From NCBI GenBank assembly GCA_037179385.1, contig CM074187.1, positions 44,426,879-44,490,878 of the forward strand: a DNA stretch of 64,000 nt, read 5' to 3'. The notes beneath the pieces are model-generated. The model was not told where the DNA came from. It saw nothing but the letters and a program-made list of their open reading frames with translations, and made no database searches. Source of the stretch: Holothuria scabra. Taxonomy: Eukaryota > Echinodermata > Holothuroidea > Aspidochirotida > Holothuriidae. A program made the translations under genes and the position numbers. Below are positions 3,092 through 34,970 of this stretch, piece after piece (position 1 is the stretch's first letter; each line of letters opens with the position of its first letter).

Positions 3092-3705
3092 GGATCATGT
3101 CCCGTTCACGCCATGACGATAACCGCGTTGACTGTACCACTCTAAAATAGGTGCGTGGAATGAACGCTGTGTGAACGCAACGGAAGAGGGTGTACAGACA
3201 TAACATTAGCTTCCACGGGAGTAAAAATTCAGCGTACTCGATGTCTACGGAAGCCTCGAATGTTCTGAATTGAAGGAAAAGTTAAGTCGTAATGGATTGC
3301 AAGCAAGTGACTGGCGCAAATCGCATAGCGTAGTATGAATCATAGTCAAAGTTGTGTGTGGATCTTTTCATGTAGCGAACTATGTTCAATGTTTGGTGAT
3401 ACATCATAAAGTTATTGAATTCTAGTTTGTATGTAAAACCGACGTTACTGTAAATAACTGTTTATTTTTTTTACTCGTTCATTCATCATATAATTATGTA
3501 ATGCGAAGGAAACAAAAAGTTGCAGTTCAATGAGCTTATATATTTCGTACGAGTTCTAACATATATCGCGAAAGTTTTAGAAACACTCGATTTATTACCG
3601 GACATTTAAACAGCTTCGTACGAAAATGTACTTACACATTGCATGTGATGTCTAGGTCCAAAAATTAGCGATAACTTGCGCTCATGATTGAGATAACATA
3701 CGAAA
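3092..3705 (+). repeat. Left terminal inverted repeat of the giant element
   Basis: The outer ~110 bp match the reverse complement of 34860-34970 almost base for base. Matching then continues through CTACGGAAGCC, TGTTCTGAATTGAAGGAAAA, CATCATAATTATGT-like and GAGCTTATATATTTCGTACG blocks, and ends around CATGATTGAGATA at about 3683-3695. The outermost part lacks TTCGTACGAA; the first palindromes appear at about 3548 (one base off) and 3616, so the unique terminus grades into the satellite. The strong conservation of the outer bases relative to the inner part suggests a terminus under functional constraint. Confidence 0.75.
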
Positions 3706-4010
3706 AAAACTCAAATTAAAGGCCGACTACAACGTTGAGTTTCACTTCGTACGAAGTCGTCACTAGAATATGTTACAAACAGCTGAAATAATTAGCGTGC
3801 AACTTCGTACGAAACCGCACACAGTATTGATTGTGATATATTGGTCTAAAATTGAACAAGTTGCTTTATTTTTATGTGAGATAACACATAAAAACAACAA
3901 GCTTTTAAAAGGCTATTGGACACTTAAGCTTGCTTGCGGGGTCACGCTCTACTGGAAAATGTTGGTTACCAAATATATACATACTTCAAAGACCAATGCA
4001 TATCGTCCAG

Positions 4011-4032
4011 CCAGGGAGTTGCAACTCCCTGG
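4011..4032. repeat. 22-bp perfect palindrome inserted with 5-bp duplication
   Basis: A perfect palindrome (CCAGGGAGTTG plus its exact reverse complement) lies between two copies of TCCAG (4006-4010 and 4033-4037). The homologous, inverted sites in the right arm (for example about 26430-26460) lack the palindrome and have a single copy of the flanking word, so this is an insertion with a target duplication, not an ancestral feature. Confidence 0.6.
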
Positions 4033-7000
4033 TCCAGCAACGATTTAAATTCTTTTCGTAGAAAGTATATAACAATTATGATCTATATCTTGCTAAAGTT
4101 AGCGAACGTAGAGTATCCCGGTACTGGAAACTTGACCAAACTTTGCCTTTTCTCCTTCCAATGGGCCATGGTAGCCTTCATAGGGAGGCGGTCGAAAATG
4201 GACCTCAAAATTGGTGTTACGGTAAAAGAAATTACTGTTACGGCATTACTGCGGTGGGTAAAAACCGCTTTTAGACTCTTGGGCTCTTATGCAACTTGTG
4301 GGAAGGGGGGGGGGTAATATCACAACATCCATTTGGGAGTATTCCCACTAGTGTTCTCGATAAAGAAAATAGCGACTCTTTTCCCAGGTCCCTTCTCTTT
4401 GGCCTCCGTGGGCCCTTAATTAGAGGAGTCTTAGGATGAGACCATGGCTCTTTAGCAAACAAAGTTAAGTTAATTTGCTTACCAAAGAAAGTTCAAAGAA
4501 ATCCATGCGCGGGGTATAGCTTTTCACTCGATTGTTTTGGCCATAGCAAATAGTGAGATTAAAGCACCTTTTCTGTTCCGATTTAAAGTCAACAACAATT
4601 TAATATTATTTCGCACGAAGTAGAACTTGAACGTGTGTACAAGCTACTCATATCGCTATTGGCGCATGAATACATCTTTTTACAAAATGTACGAAATATT
4701 GTTTGGTGATATAAACTTAGCGATTGAAGTTCCCTTTAATTTGTGAAATGATGCACCCGAGGAAAAGTCAAGACATTTCAATGTAGTAGCTTTTAAGTGG
4801 AGTCTCGATTGGTTTGTTTAAGAAATAGATCGAGAACTTTCTATGCACTGTGTCGATCCCGGCTAGACGCGAAAAACTTAAACATTTTATGTTTCGCACG
4901 AAAATGTAGTAATGTATGTTTACAAAGCGCTAAAATCATTTATACGCATATATACAGCTTTGTACGGAAACGTACGAAGTAAATTATTTATTATATATAT
5001 TGAAAAACTGAGTTATAAGTTTCTTAATTTTAAGTTAAGTTGCTTACAATAGAAAGTCAAAAAAATGAGATTTCAACTTGAGGGGAAGCTTTTCACTCGA
5101 CTGGTTTCGTCAGCAAATGGATCCAGTATAAGATACATTTTGTGTGCCCAAGCATTAAGGCGACAACAGTTAAATACTACTTCGTGCGAAGTAAAACAAA
5201 GATATGTTTACCGGCTACTCAGTTGTCCTGATTTAAGTTGAGGTAACGCCATAAACAAATTTACAATATAGCTATTGGACACTTCAGTTTGAGGGGTAGA
5301 GCTTTACTGGAAAATAATGGTTACCAAATCAAGAAAGATCACGTAAGACCAATGCATATCGCGACCGACAACGATTTAAATTATCTTGAATTCGTAAAAA
5401 TTATATTACAAATATGGACCTATATCTTGCTAAAAGTAAACTGTTGAATCCATTCACTCCAAAAATATTTCACAAATATTCGCAGGTATCCGCGTATGTG
5501 ACCGCAAAATAAGTTTTGTTTTAAAAAACAATTGTGCTACGTATTATGAAGAAAACACGCTTATTAACTTTTTCTGTAAGGAGTGGGCAGGTTCATATAT
5601 ACCGCAAAACCCACTTTGGGGTATCCGCGCATGTGTCGTCTATCAATAGCAGAGGTAACTTTTCCAAGGTCCTTTCCATTTGGCCTCGATGGGCCTTTAA
5701 AAGAGGATTAGGGTCAGTCTTTGATTGCTTTCACCAAAACCGTCGATTAAGACCTAAAACTTAGCGACAAGTTGTCTTCATTTTTTTTTTTTTTTTGAGA
5801 TTGTTGACGGGAGAAAGTAAAAAAATGACATTTGAACGTGAGGGGAACTTGAGGTCTCCAATCGATTGGTTTCATCAAGAAAAAGATTCAGTAAGATTAA
5901 ACATTTTCGTCTGTCCCGGCTTAAGGACGACTGTATTTTTAGTTTGGTTCGCACAAAAGAAAACTATAAATGTTTACGAGCTACCCAAATTATTATTACG
6001 CATGGACACAGCTTCTTCGTACGAAAGAGTACGAAGTACTTTATCGATATAGTCCTAAATTCGGCGATAATTTCACTTCAGTTTGTGTGATGTTGCACCC
6101 GGGAGAAAGTTAAAATAAAAATATTCTATTTTTGTAGTAGCTTTTTACTCGATTGGTTTGTTTAGCAAATAGATCCAGTAAGATAAGGCATTTTGTCTGT
6201 CCACTGTAAAATGCGACAACACTTCAATTCTGTTTTGTACGAAGTTCATTAATCTATGATTACGAGCGCTTCAAATTTTTGTTACGCAGGAATGCGGCTC
6301 CGTACAAAACTGTACGAAATGATGTTTGGGGATATGAAATCAAATTGAACAACAATTAAAGTTGTCCTAATTTTTTTATGAGACTGAACTGATAAGGCGA
6401 GAAAGCCCGAAAAAAGGGCATTTTAACTTTAGAGGTAGCTTTCACTCGATTGGTTTCGTCGATAAATAGATCTCTTTGGAAGAAGGCATTTTGTCTGTCC
6501 AGGTCTAGGGCGACAGCAGTTTAAGTGTGTTTCGTACGAAGTAGAACTAATATATGTATGTTTACGAGCTACCAGTAACTAGTAACCATGCATACAGCTT
6601 CGCACGAAAAGGTACTAAATATTGCTTAATGATACATACCTTAAATTTTGCAATAAGACGATTTCACTTTTTGTGATTGTGCAACCGATTGAGAAAAAAA
6701 AGAAGGACGTTTTAATATCGAAGCTTTACACCCGATAGGCTTGTTAGATAAATAAATATGTAAACCCAACGCATTATGTCAGGTCTGGATAAAGGCGAAT
6801 TATTAATGTTTATATTTCGTAAGGAGTAGTAGTGATACGCTTACAAAGTACTCTCATTAGTATAACGCATTTATACAGTTTCGTACGGAAATGTACAAAG
6901 TATATTCTTTTAAGACATTATATTTAAAAAATGAGTGATAAGTTCCTTGATTCTGAATTTAAGTTGCTCACAAGAAAAGGTCAAAAGAAATGATATTTTA

Positions 7001-33827: not shown

Positions 33828-34175
33828 CACTCTAAAATCAAAAGAGTGAACTTAGTCACTCTTTGATCGAGTGAAAAGTGTAAATTCACTCCATTAGAGT
33901 GATAATTTACTCCAAGAGGAGTGAAGTTCCCTCCAAAAAGAGTGAAGTTCCCTCTAAAAATAGTGAAATTCACTAGAGGAAGAGGGAAAATTCACTCTTC
34001 CACGAGTGCCTGCAATGATCGCTCTTTTTTTAAGAGCGATCATCGTGGGCACTTCATCAAGAGTGAAACTTCGCTCGTTTTAAGGGAATTTCACTCTTTT
34101 TGGAGTGAACTTCACTCTTTTTTGGAGTGAACTTCACTCCTTTTGGAGGGAACTTCACTCCTCTTGGAGTGAATT
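33828..34175. mobile_element. TA-type foldback MITE, right-truncated copy
   Basis: Same element and same site in the repeat unit as 29518-29961 (left TA at 33826-33827). The right terminus is missing: after GGAGTGAATT the sequence jumps to GTTTCGTAGGATATCTC, a second partial copy of the unit sequence that lies upstream of the MITE. This is a rearrangement junction at the edge of the right TIR. Confidence 0.7.
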
Positions 34176-34179
34176 GTTT

Positions 34180-34970
34180 CGTAGGATATCTCAATCATGA
34201 ACGCAATTTATCGGTTATGTAAGTGCGTCTACATTTTCGTACGAAGCTGTATGAACGTTGAATGTCCGACAATAAATTGAGTGTTCCCTTACTTAATATA
34301 TGTTAGATCTCGTACGAAATATATAAGCTCATTGGACTGGAACTTTTTGTTTCCTTTGCATGACATAATTATGATGAATTAACGAGTAAATAAAATAAAC
34401 ACTTATTAACAATAACGTCAGTATTACACACAAACTCGAATTCGATCACTAGGATGTTTTACCCAACATTTAACATAGTTCGTTACCTGAAAAGAGAGAA
34501 AACTGAATGCAGTACACATACATTGCTATTTCGTTGGTTCGGGACGCGATACTCACATATTAAAACACATGATATAATCTTTCTTCCCCACACAATCCCC
34601 ACAAATCTTTGACTACATATATATATATATATATATATATATATATATATATATATATATATATATATATATATATATATATATATATATATATATATAT
34701 ATATATATATATATATATATATATATATTCTTTTCTCTCTGCGATCCACTCCAGTGACTTGCTCGCAATTACGATTGAACTTTTCCTTCAATTCAGAACA
34801 TTAAAGGCTTCCGTAGTCATCGATCAGGCTGAAATTTTCATTCCAGTGGAGGCTAATGTTATGTCTATACACCCTCTTCCCTTTCGTTCGCACAGCGTTC
34901 ATTCCATGCACCTATTTTAGAGTGGAACAGTCAACGCGGTTATCGTCATGGCGTGAACGGGACATGATCC
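34180..34970 (-). repeat. Right terminal inverted repeat of the giant element
   Basis: Reverse complement of 3092-3705, with the outer ~110 bp nearly identical. It is longer than the left copy because an (AT)n tract and nearby sequence (about 34480-34730) interrupt it. The inner part matches the left through TACTCGTTAATTCATCATA, GAGCTTATATATTTCGTACG and CATACAGCTTCGTACG. Confidence 0.75.
34614..34729. repeat. (AT)n microsatellite inside the right TIR
   Basis: About 115 bp of pure AT dinucleotide. The left TIR has no AT expansion at the corresponding position (about 3330), so the expansion arose after the two ends separated. Confidence 0.95.

Follow-up and report, generated by a model that had tools for sequence, protein, structure and literature searches.

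An end-defined satellite element in the window

The window, a 64,000-nucleotide stretch of the Holothuria scabra genome, contains an element of 31,879 bp (3092-34970) with inverted ends and an 8-bp target duplication. The left terminal inverted repeat (L-type end; 3092..3328, plus strand) matched the reverse complement of the right terminal inverted repeat (R-type end; 34737..34970, minus strand) at 87% over 238 columns; 104 of the outer 110 columns were identical, as were 104 of the following 128. The outer 25 bp were perfect, and with up to three mismatches allowed both ends were the sole sites in the window, with none in 100 shuffles. As is typical of foldback-type elements, the inverted terminal repeats give exact ends. 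The sequence AGAAGAAG adjoins both the left end (3084..3091, plus strand) and the right end (34971..34978, plus strand). An earlier note on this DNA had claimed an element of about 31.9 kb with matching inverted termini and the same 8-bp sequence at both ends, and both points were borne out. Because AGAAGAAG sits in a trinucleotide tract, the window copy alone is compatible with a duplication of 8, 5 or 2 bp; the other copies settle its length as 8 bp.

The similarity of the ends is extended by a second module (3363-3630 versus 34230-34495, 82.5%). On the left, the subterminal module delimited by BLAST spans 3363..3735 (plus strand), and parts of it also occur in the 1.29-kb right-arm units and the right end; the right subterminal module, identified by sequence match, lies at 34174..34495 (minus strand). 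An (AT)n microsatellite (34617..34728) is located directly inward of the right end. The arms as a whole, however, do not mirror each other as a single array: deeper pieces, outside the ends and the subterminal module, were only about 65-77% alike. The element end had no match in the viral sequences scanned, and a protein look-up of one end frame and one module frame found no copy elsewhere. An 18-bp search of contigs returned 10 bacterial matches, which were taken as chance.

Satellite arms, cores and coding content

Self-repeats of the element account for 26,033 of its 31,879 internal bases, and only two short matches (E up to 1e-5) linked its inside to its outside in the window. The left-arm satellite (4465..12537, plus strand) consists of monomers of about 575 bp, themselves dimers of subunits of about 290 bp, arranged in three-monomer units of about 1.99 kb; two such units, 6641-8625 and 8626-10609, differed by 4.5% substitutions. 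An inverted satellite segment follows within the left arm (12603..15048, minus strand), and then a further segment (15066..15716, plus strand). Non-satellite core 1 (15717..18382) comprises degenerate pieces of a Penelope-like retroelement, is partly common to other copies and varies among them. It includes a (TA)n tract (17668-17809), a GIY-YIG reading frame (17932-18447, minus strand) and a tRNA-like sequence (17500-17573), the only sequence found with Rfam at gathering scores. Another satellite segment (18395..19655, plus strand) separates it from core 2 (19656..21883), which has no convincing coding match. Higher-order repeats differ by arm. The right-arm inner satellite (21885..26070, minus strand) has a unit of about 1.7 kb, with 9.7% substitutions between 22791-24326 and 24512-26070, and the outer higher-order array (25819..34173, minus strand) contains two copies of a 4.3-kb unit made of three 1.29-kb units and a 21-mer block; corresponding 1.29-kb units in it were 0.3%, 0.7% and 3.2% different. 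Long tandem arrays with higher-order structure of this kind are those of satellite DNA.

A Pfam scan was performed on 79 of the 107 window reading frames of at least 60 aa, the remainder being mostly repeated array frames and AT-run frames. GIY-YIG was matched by two frames, and six other families by one frame each (E 0.007-0.047). The best of the six, the Transposase-associated domain PF13963 (E 0.0069), was taken as chance for 79 frames, and MULE transposase had no match in the frames scanned. The large core frames of copies C2, C6b and C1b were considered as transposases and rejected, as they resemble Penelope-like retroelement pieces (GIY-YIG, weak RVT_1). X-masked six-frame Pfam scans of window 12281-21882 and L066:1-4618 were empty; these scans miss GIY-YIG domains recovered by the reading-frame scans and were disregarded. 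No transposase was recognised in the window or the other copies examined, consistent with the earlier observation of no visible transposition gene.

A family of copies with individual target duplications

The termini are not unique to the window. Across 13 contigs of the same genome we found 18 L/R pairs of inverted ends, spaced 17.1-72.3 kb apart; at 95-100% identity there were 20 L-type ends, one of which matched from base 77 only, and 18 R-type ends. The 8-bp duplications were exact in 11 of the 18 pairs and had one mismatch in one pair (bringing the pairs with no more than one to 12), two in three, three in two and four in one, and the exact duplications differed from copy to copy. Among 306 mispaired controls, none had zero or one mismatch and three had two. 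Target-site duplication at independent sites, as in foldback-type elements, was thus observed, and the six pairs lacking a duplication at zero or one mismatch reflect either decay or rearranged pairs. An 867-bp relative has the same kind of ends and an exact 8-bp duplication.

Six bodies were examined in full, together with 10 kb of a seventh, and all contained the same satellite. Parts of the core were present in all six full bodies. Unit numbers vary by copy (right arm: 0, 2, 6, 8, 8 and 9; left arm: 3, 7, 8, 9, 14 and 22), so that the tandem-repeat arms differ in length between arms and copies, another foldback-type feature. In a chain built from matches of at least 88% identity only, nine colinear blocks shared with copy C6a covered 96% of the window copy, with 2.6% substitutions. 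The array blocks of these two copies were mostly 92-97% alike, so part of the array has turned over at the locus.

The left and right ends are inherited together: left-end and right-end distances over 17 copies were strongly correlated (Mantel r 0.86, reached in 0 of 5000 permutations). Identity was about 95-100% among L-type ends and among R-type ends, versus 85-92% between the L and R ends of one copy. The 500-bp flanks of 17 pairs showed no match between loci at E 1e-8. Copy C6a sits in a minisatellite, and its flanks, once joined, could be aligned across the junction with an adjacent repeat at the cost of a 5-bp gap; for the remaining 16 of 17 pairs, the best match of the joined flanks was the trivial self-match.

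A palindrome within the satellite

The palindrome TTCGTACGAA, allowing at most one mismatch, occurs at 95 sites inside the window element (50 exact; 3544..34318), spread across the satellite, and at one site outside. It is missing from the outer 450 bp or so on the left and 650 bp or so on the right. The six full bodies carry 48 to 139 sites per copy at a density of 2.7-3.3 per kb, and no site was found in 17 kb of flanks. The 867-bp relative has none at up to two mismatches; as this relative jumped without the palindrome, which is also absent from the outer ends, TTCGTACGAA is not needed for transposition.

Against the left-arm consensus, the four palindrome columns ranked 26, 87, 108 and 210 of 567 in conservation. 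When subunits were aligned with masking and no slack was allowed, the two sites came first and 277th of 282; with a 7-column slack and the motif word scored at the second site they ranked 1 and 2 of 282, a ranking obtained on the same data that suggested the motif. When the analysis was repeated on C2, the two sites came fifth of 281, not first. The palindrome has TTCG in common with the CENP-B box and was rejected as such a box, as the CGGG half is missing. Literature occurrences of the string look unrelated by title, among the matches listed and as far as those entries show. TTCGTACGAA may be a binding site for a protein, maintained by selection and perhaps serving the transposase as an accessory site of the kind reported for Galileo. 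We also raise, as a tentative and on balance doubtful proposal, that the satellite does more than ride along: the TTCGTACGAA array could be a putative binding platform for a protein, most simply a trans-acting transposase, or a chromatin factor, with array length selected through binding. If so, the satellite itself would be a cis-acting part of the mobile element.

Origin of the element

The element is very probably a giant, apparently non-autonomous foldback-type DNA transposon whose multi-kilobase satellite has repeatedly moved as one unit. This reading draws on defined inverted ends, 8-bp duplications at many sites and, in the copies examined, one-satellite bodies that are colinear despite unrelated flanks. 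Because the bodies are colinear at unrelated sites, the end distances are correlated and copies have their own duplications, we conclude that the satellite moved as a unit, which supports the earlier note's central claim. A transposase encoded elsewhere, presumably supplied by an autonomous partner, would bind the ends and move the segment of 17-72 kb in its entirety. From one jump to the next, unequal exchange could lengthen and shorten the arrays, and this growth and shrinkage might generate the nested higher-order repeats.

A small foldback element might instead have inserted and its repeats expanded in place, the satellite never having moved. Such a history would accommodate the 867-bp relative, the very recent duplications inside the element (0.3% and 0.7%, with a third pair at 3.2%, as against 5.5% for the two ends over their outer 110 bp), and near-identical ends at unequal spacing (C3a at 17.1 kb versus C1b at 32.2 kb, the ends of the two copies differing by 0.0% and 0.4%). 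However, the end identities given above indicate that the divergence between left and right ends predates the family, and it therefore has no dating value for insertion. Copies at unrelated sites also have core and array order in common, and copies that had each grown separately from a small seed would not show 96% colinearity at 2.6% substitutions. In-place expansion is thus largely refuted by the colinearity of the window copy and C6a and accounts for no more than part of the length change; as the history of the whole element we consider it unlikely.

Large, highly identical blocks would also be expected if one satellite locus had spread by dispersed segmental duplications or ectopic recombination, but similarity ends at the terminal bases, the lack of 500-bp flank matches between loci among the 17 pairs speaks against segmental duplication, and the different 8-bp duplications flanking most copies contradict it, which leaves this origin very improbable. 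We give as little credence to an assembly artefact in which the satellite was collapsed or misjoined: tandem arrays are difficult to assemble, and the array lengths as assembled could still be inaccurate, but 18 consistently oriented pairs, 12 with matching duplications, argue against it.

It has long been asked how satellite families come to occupy many chromosomal sites. The genome studied here contains 18 large elements with defined ends; the six examined in full consist mostly of satellite, their borders are exact, and the majority of them show matching target duplications as well as colinear bodies. This makes it possible to trace the dispersal of a satellite by transposition copy by copy, and to measure array turnover between related copies. 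The palindrome TTCGTACGAA is offered as a defined sequence for functional testing.

Comparison with known systems

Foldback ends can mobilise long DNA, as in the FB-bounded transposing elements of Drosophila and FARE of Arabidopsis, so size alone has precedent; to our knowledge, those elements enclose host DNA or some other sequence and no higher-order satellite. Sea urchin TU, also of foldback type, has inverted repeats with a tandem domain and an 8-bp duplication, and is much smaller than the present element. Helitrons, as far as we know, have neither target duplications nor long terminal inverted repeats (TIRs), whereas the present element has both. Oyster Helitrons resemble it in carrying satellite monomers round the genome and differ, according to the available text, in their short arrays, with a mean of about six monomers for one satellite (PMC8268682).

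The 8-bp duplication falls within the 8-11 bp given for the Mutator superfamily in the source text available (PMC6446971). Tm1 Mutator/Foldback elements of root-knot nematodes, as described in the accessible text, similarly have composite TIRs with internal short repeats and mostly 8-10 bp duplications; one reported element measures 1,080 bp, some members carry a gene for a putative transposase, and the description in that text includes no satellite body (PMC3169594). In Galileo of the P superfamily, according to the available portions of two reports, internal tandem repeats lengthen the TIRs, the two TIRs vary independently, and the repeats carry extra transposase-binding sites (PMC3573991, PMC3688188). 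Long TIRs with internal tandem repeats are thus common to both; Galileo differs in its 7-bp duplications (PMC3573991), versus 8 bp here, in its TIRs of up to about 1.26 kb and in having a known transposase (PMC3573991, PMC3688188).

Compared by the available description, the element also resembles Tetris of Drosophila virilis, an apparently non-autonomous foldback element whose TIRs contain an outer flanking domain and then tandem repeats of about 220 bp. Complete copies have 8-9 bp duplications and TIRs of up to 1,735 bp, and Tetris-derived repeats have grown into satellite arrays reaching 66 copies; its authors suggested that larger arrays may have disrupted transposition (PMC4079207). Unlike in Tetris as there described, arms of many kilobases lie here inside complete, duplication-flanked copies that are colinear at several sites. 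In the literature as far as accessible, including the reviews PMC9659126 and PMC12692304 and with subscription titles thinly covered, no transposon this large with a higher-order satellite body was found. The present element extends foldback-type arms from the 1-2 kb of the texts consulted to ten or more kilobases. The kind of element is already known, a foldback transposon seeding satellite as Tetris does; what is new is the scale, the higher-order body and the repeated mobility.

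Paired ends and copies across the genome

The element spans 31,879 bp (window 3092–34970) and is bounded by terminal inverted repeats of 237 bp (L-type, 3092–3328) and 234 bp (R-type, 34737–34970), with 87% identity across 238 columns. The two ends were identical in 104/110 outer columns versus 104/128 of the columns that follow (Fisher p 0.003). Within the window, the outer 25 bp were present at the two element ends alone (0 in 100 shuffles), and the 300 bp beyond each end were not clearly alike (score 25 in inverted and 24 in direct orientation, against at most 27 in shuffles). 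Both ends are adjoined by AGAAGAAG. The inverted ends and adjoining sequence reported in an earlier note are confirmed. As AGAAGAAG sits in a trinucleotide tract, the window copy alone is compatible with a duplication of 8, 5 or 2 bp.

The window's own genome (1,192,178,128 bases, 31 contigs) was searched with each end, and the best 40 of 131 left-end and 40 of 123 right-end candidates were scored, the resulting counts being lower bounds. At least 20 L-type and at least 18 R-type ends were found at about 95–100% identity. Among the matches listed, all 18 R-type ends, on 13 contigs, had an L-type partner on the same contig in inverted orientation, and two L-type ends (C17:1945850 and C12:49364311) had no partner. 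The termini that the earlier note proposed to search for thus recur as at least 18 end pairs, spaced at 17.1, 18.4, 24.2, 24.5, 27.7, 31.1, 31.9, 32.2, 34.3, 38.8, 40.1, 42.6, 45.8, 46.0, 47.2, 51.1, 66.3 and 72.3 kb and together spanning about 0.69 Mb. In C3b (the C3 copy at 53.9 Mb; copies are named by contig), a nested insertion of ~0.87 kb (segment L053:206–1076) with a 12-bp duplication, TGTGTGAACGCA, interrupts the left end. More distant relatives were found on contigs C2, C12, C22 and C8; the C2 relative, an 867-bp end pair (C2:18458379–18459245), has the same kind of ends as the giant family and is flanked by an exact 8-bp duplication, GCAACAAT.

The earlier note asked whether each copy carries its own 8-bp duplication. 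The eight flanking bases matched exactly in 11 of the 18 pairs, each time with a different sequence; one further pair had a single mismatch, three pairs had two, two pairs had three and one pair had four. Among all 306 mispaired combinations, none had 0 or 1 mismatch and 3 had two. Joined flanks were compared for 17 pairs, of which C6a was informative and the other 16 were uninformative. C6a is inserted in a minisatellite, and its joined flanks align across the junction, with a 5-bp gap near it, to a repeat nearby in that minisatellite array. This comparison is empty-site-like and is not one with an allele.

Satellite anatomy of the body

Self-repeats account for 26,033 of the 31,879 element bases (self-BLAST and subunit-profile matches combined), and similarity between the inside and outside of the element is confined to two short matches. 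The satellite is built from ~575-bp monomers, each composed of two ~290-bp subunits. Monomers lie on the plus strand at 4465–12537, 15066–15702 and 18434–19650, and on the minus strand at 12603–15048 and 21886–33639. On the left, they form a higher-order unit of ~1.99 kb (three monomers; 4.5% substitutions); on the right, there are units of ~1.7 kb (9.7% substitutions) and of 4.3 kb (1.5% substitutions), the latter made up of three 1.29-kb units and a 21-mer block. When each 1.29-kb unit is compared with its counterpart, the three pairs diverge by 0.3%, 0.7% and 3.2%. The two arms do not form a single mirrored array: outside the ends and a subterminal module, arm-versus-arm pieces are ~65–77% alike. 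The non-satellite core (about 15.7–18.4 kb and 19.7–21.9 kb) contains Penelope-like remnants, tRNA-like sequence and a (TA)n tract.

The CpG observed/expected ratio is 1.05 within 3092–34970 versus 0.35 and 0.71 in the flanks; with palindrome-like sites masked (up to 3 mismatches), 754 of 1066 element CpGs are still left. Beyond the element, a ~52-bp minisatellite forms two arrays (47237–49236; about 75–83% alike) between inverted repeats at 46495–47089 and 51484–52090 (77%), and a LINE-type zinc-binding fragment is present at 50245–50616 (zf-RVT, E 1.2e-6).

Movement of the satellite as a unit

The bodies of six copies (C9, which is the window copy, and C6a, C2, C22, C6b and C3a) were read from end to end, along with 10 kb of a seventh, C1b; the remaining 11 copies are known by their ends alone. 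The subunit profile covers 44–59% of the length of all six full bodies, and parts of the core are present in every one. With chaining limited to plus-strand matches that reached 88% identity, C9 and C6a were joined in nine blocks that account for 96% of the window copy, with 783/30,622 substitutions (2.6%) and block identities, from left to right, of 98.3, 93.3, 88.5, 96.5, 98.2, 93.5, 93.4, 92.8 and 98.9%. Chains covered 71% of the window copy against C22 (2.4% substitutions), 80% against C2 (3.9%), 64% against C6b (4.2%) and 48% against C3a (6.1%). The 500-bp flanks of 17 pairs, compared between loci, did not match one another; for C22, C3a and C1b, the flanks match dispersed repeats in the non-element part of the window. 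Across 17 copies, L and R distance matrices were correlated (Mantel r 0.86, 0/5000 permutations). Colinear bodies, a common core, unshared flanks and the L/R correlation together indicate that whole segments, including their satellite, were transposed and inherited as units, which bears out the boldest proposal of the earlier note, a satellite array moving as one. The movement appears recent, judging by copy likeness alone and without a clock. L–L and R–R comparisons with the window ends give about 95–100% identity, versus 85–92% between L and R within one copy; therefore, end divergence provides no date for insertion.

The arrays changed between copies. Counted at 80% identity over no less than 80% of the unit length, the 1.29-kb units of the right arm number 6 in C9, 9 in C6a, 8 in C2, 2 in C22, 8 in C6b and 0 in C3a. 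The 575-bp monomers of the left arm number 8, 14, 22, 9, 7 and 3, respectively. The ends of C3a and C1b are 0.0% and 0.4% apart, yet their end-to-end lengths are 17.1 and 32.2 kb; the 10 kb read of C1b contain 1.29-kb-unit sequence and nested retroelements, and C3a is without any full 1.29-kb unit. Because unit numbers vary and internal duplications are young, unequal exchange would explain the array change.

A palindrome concentrated in the element

In the window, TTCGTACGAA occurs exactly 50 times inside the element and 0 times outside, 95 versus 1 times with up to 1 mismatch and 158 versus 11 with up to 2. Under a first-order model of the element, 0.02 exact sites and 1.5 near sites would be expected on average, and the runner-up 10-bp palindrome, AT runs excluded, has 5 copies. 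The six full bodies hold 48–139 near sites each (2.7–3.3 per kb), and 17 kb of copy flanks hold none. With the motif masked from the aligner and 7 columns of slack allowed, the subunit's two sites ranked 1 and 2 of 282 windows in conservation (1 and 277 without slack); the analysis repeated on C2 gave ranks 5 and 5 of 281, and on C6b, with one site, 2 of 271.

It is plausible that TTCGTACGAA is a candidate accessory transposase site, since tandem repeats of Galileo carry extra transposase-binding sites (PMC3688188). Against this role, TTCGTACGAA is missing from the outer ~450–650 bp of the element, and from the 867-bp relative even at two mismatches, although that relative jumped; the relative contains a satellite-like piece of 80–84% identity.

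Mechanism and comparison with known systems

In TIR transposons, defined ends and a duplication of fixed length imply a transposase acting at the ends. Such an enzyme would act on the ends of this element, and would probably be supplied by an autonomous partner elsewhere. No transposase was found in 79 of the 107 window reading frames, in which GIY-YIG and six chance-level families were matched; one of the six, PF13963 (Transposase-associated domain), weakly matched a single one of these 79 element frames (E 0.0069). In C2, C6b and C1b, the long frames resemble Penelope-like elements and not a transposase. An 8-bp duplication fits Mutator, and other superfamilies would fit it too. Mutator target duplications are 8–11 bp (PMC6446971).

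The Penelope-like frame at 17932–18447 has 20 protein matches: unnamed proteins at up to 97%, and named ones from Holothuria leucospilota alone, at 59–63%. An echinoderm host may tentatively be guessed. TU elements, mentioned in the earlier note, likewise come from an echinoderm. Penelope-like frames also lie near (TA)n tracts in the C2 core (extracted segments L066:209–3743 and L065:7631–9506), and the nested pieces differ from copy to copy. The core looks as if it were a landing site for retroelements.

Literature searches of an open-licence library found no match for the size of the element, its higher-order satellite bodies or their repeated movement as units. The element is of a known kind, that of foldback transposons with TIR repeats that turn into satellite, as exemplified by Tetris.
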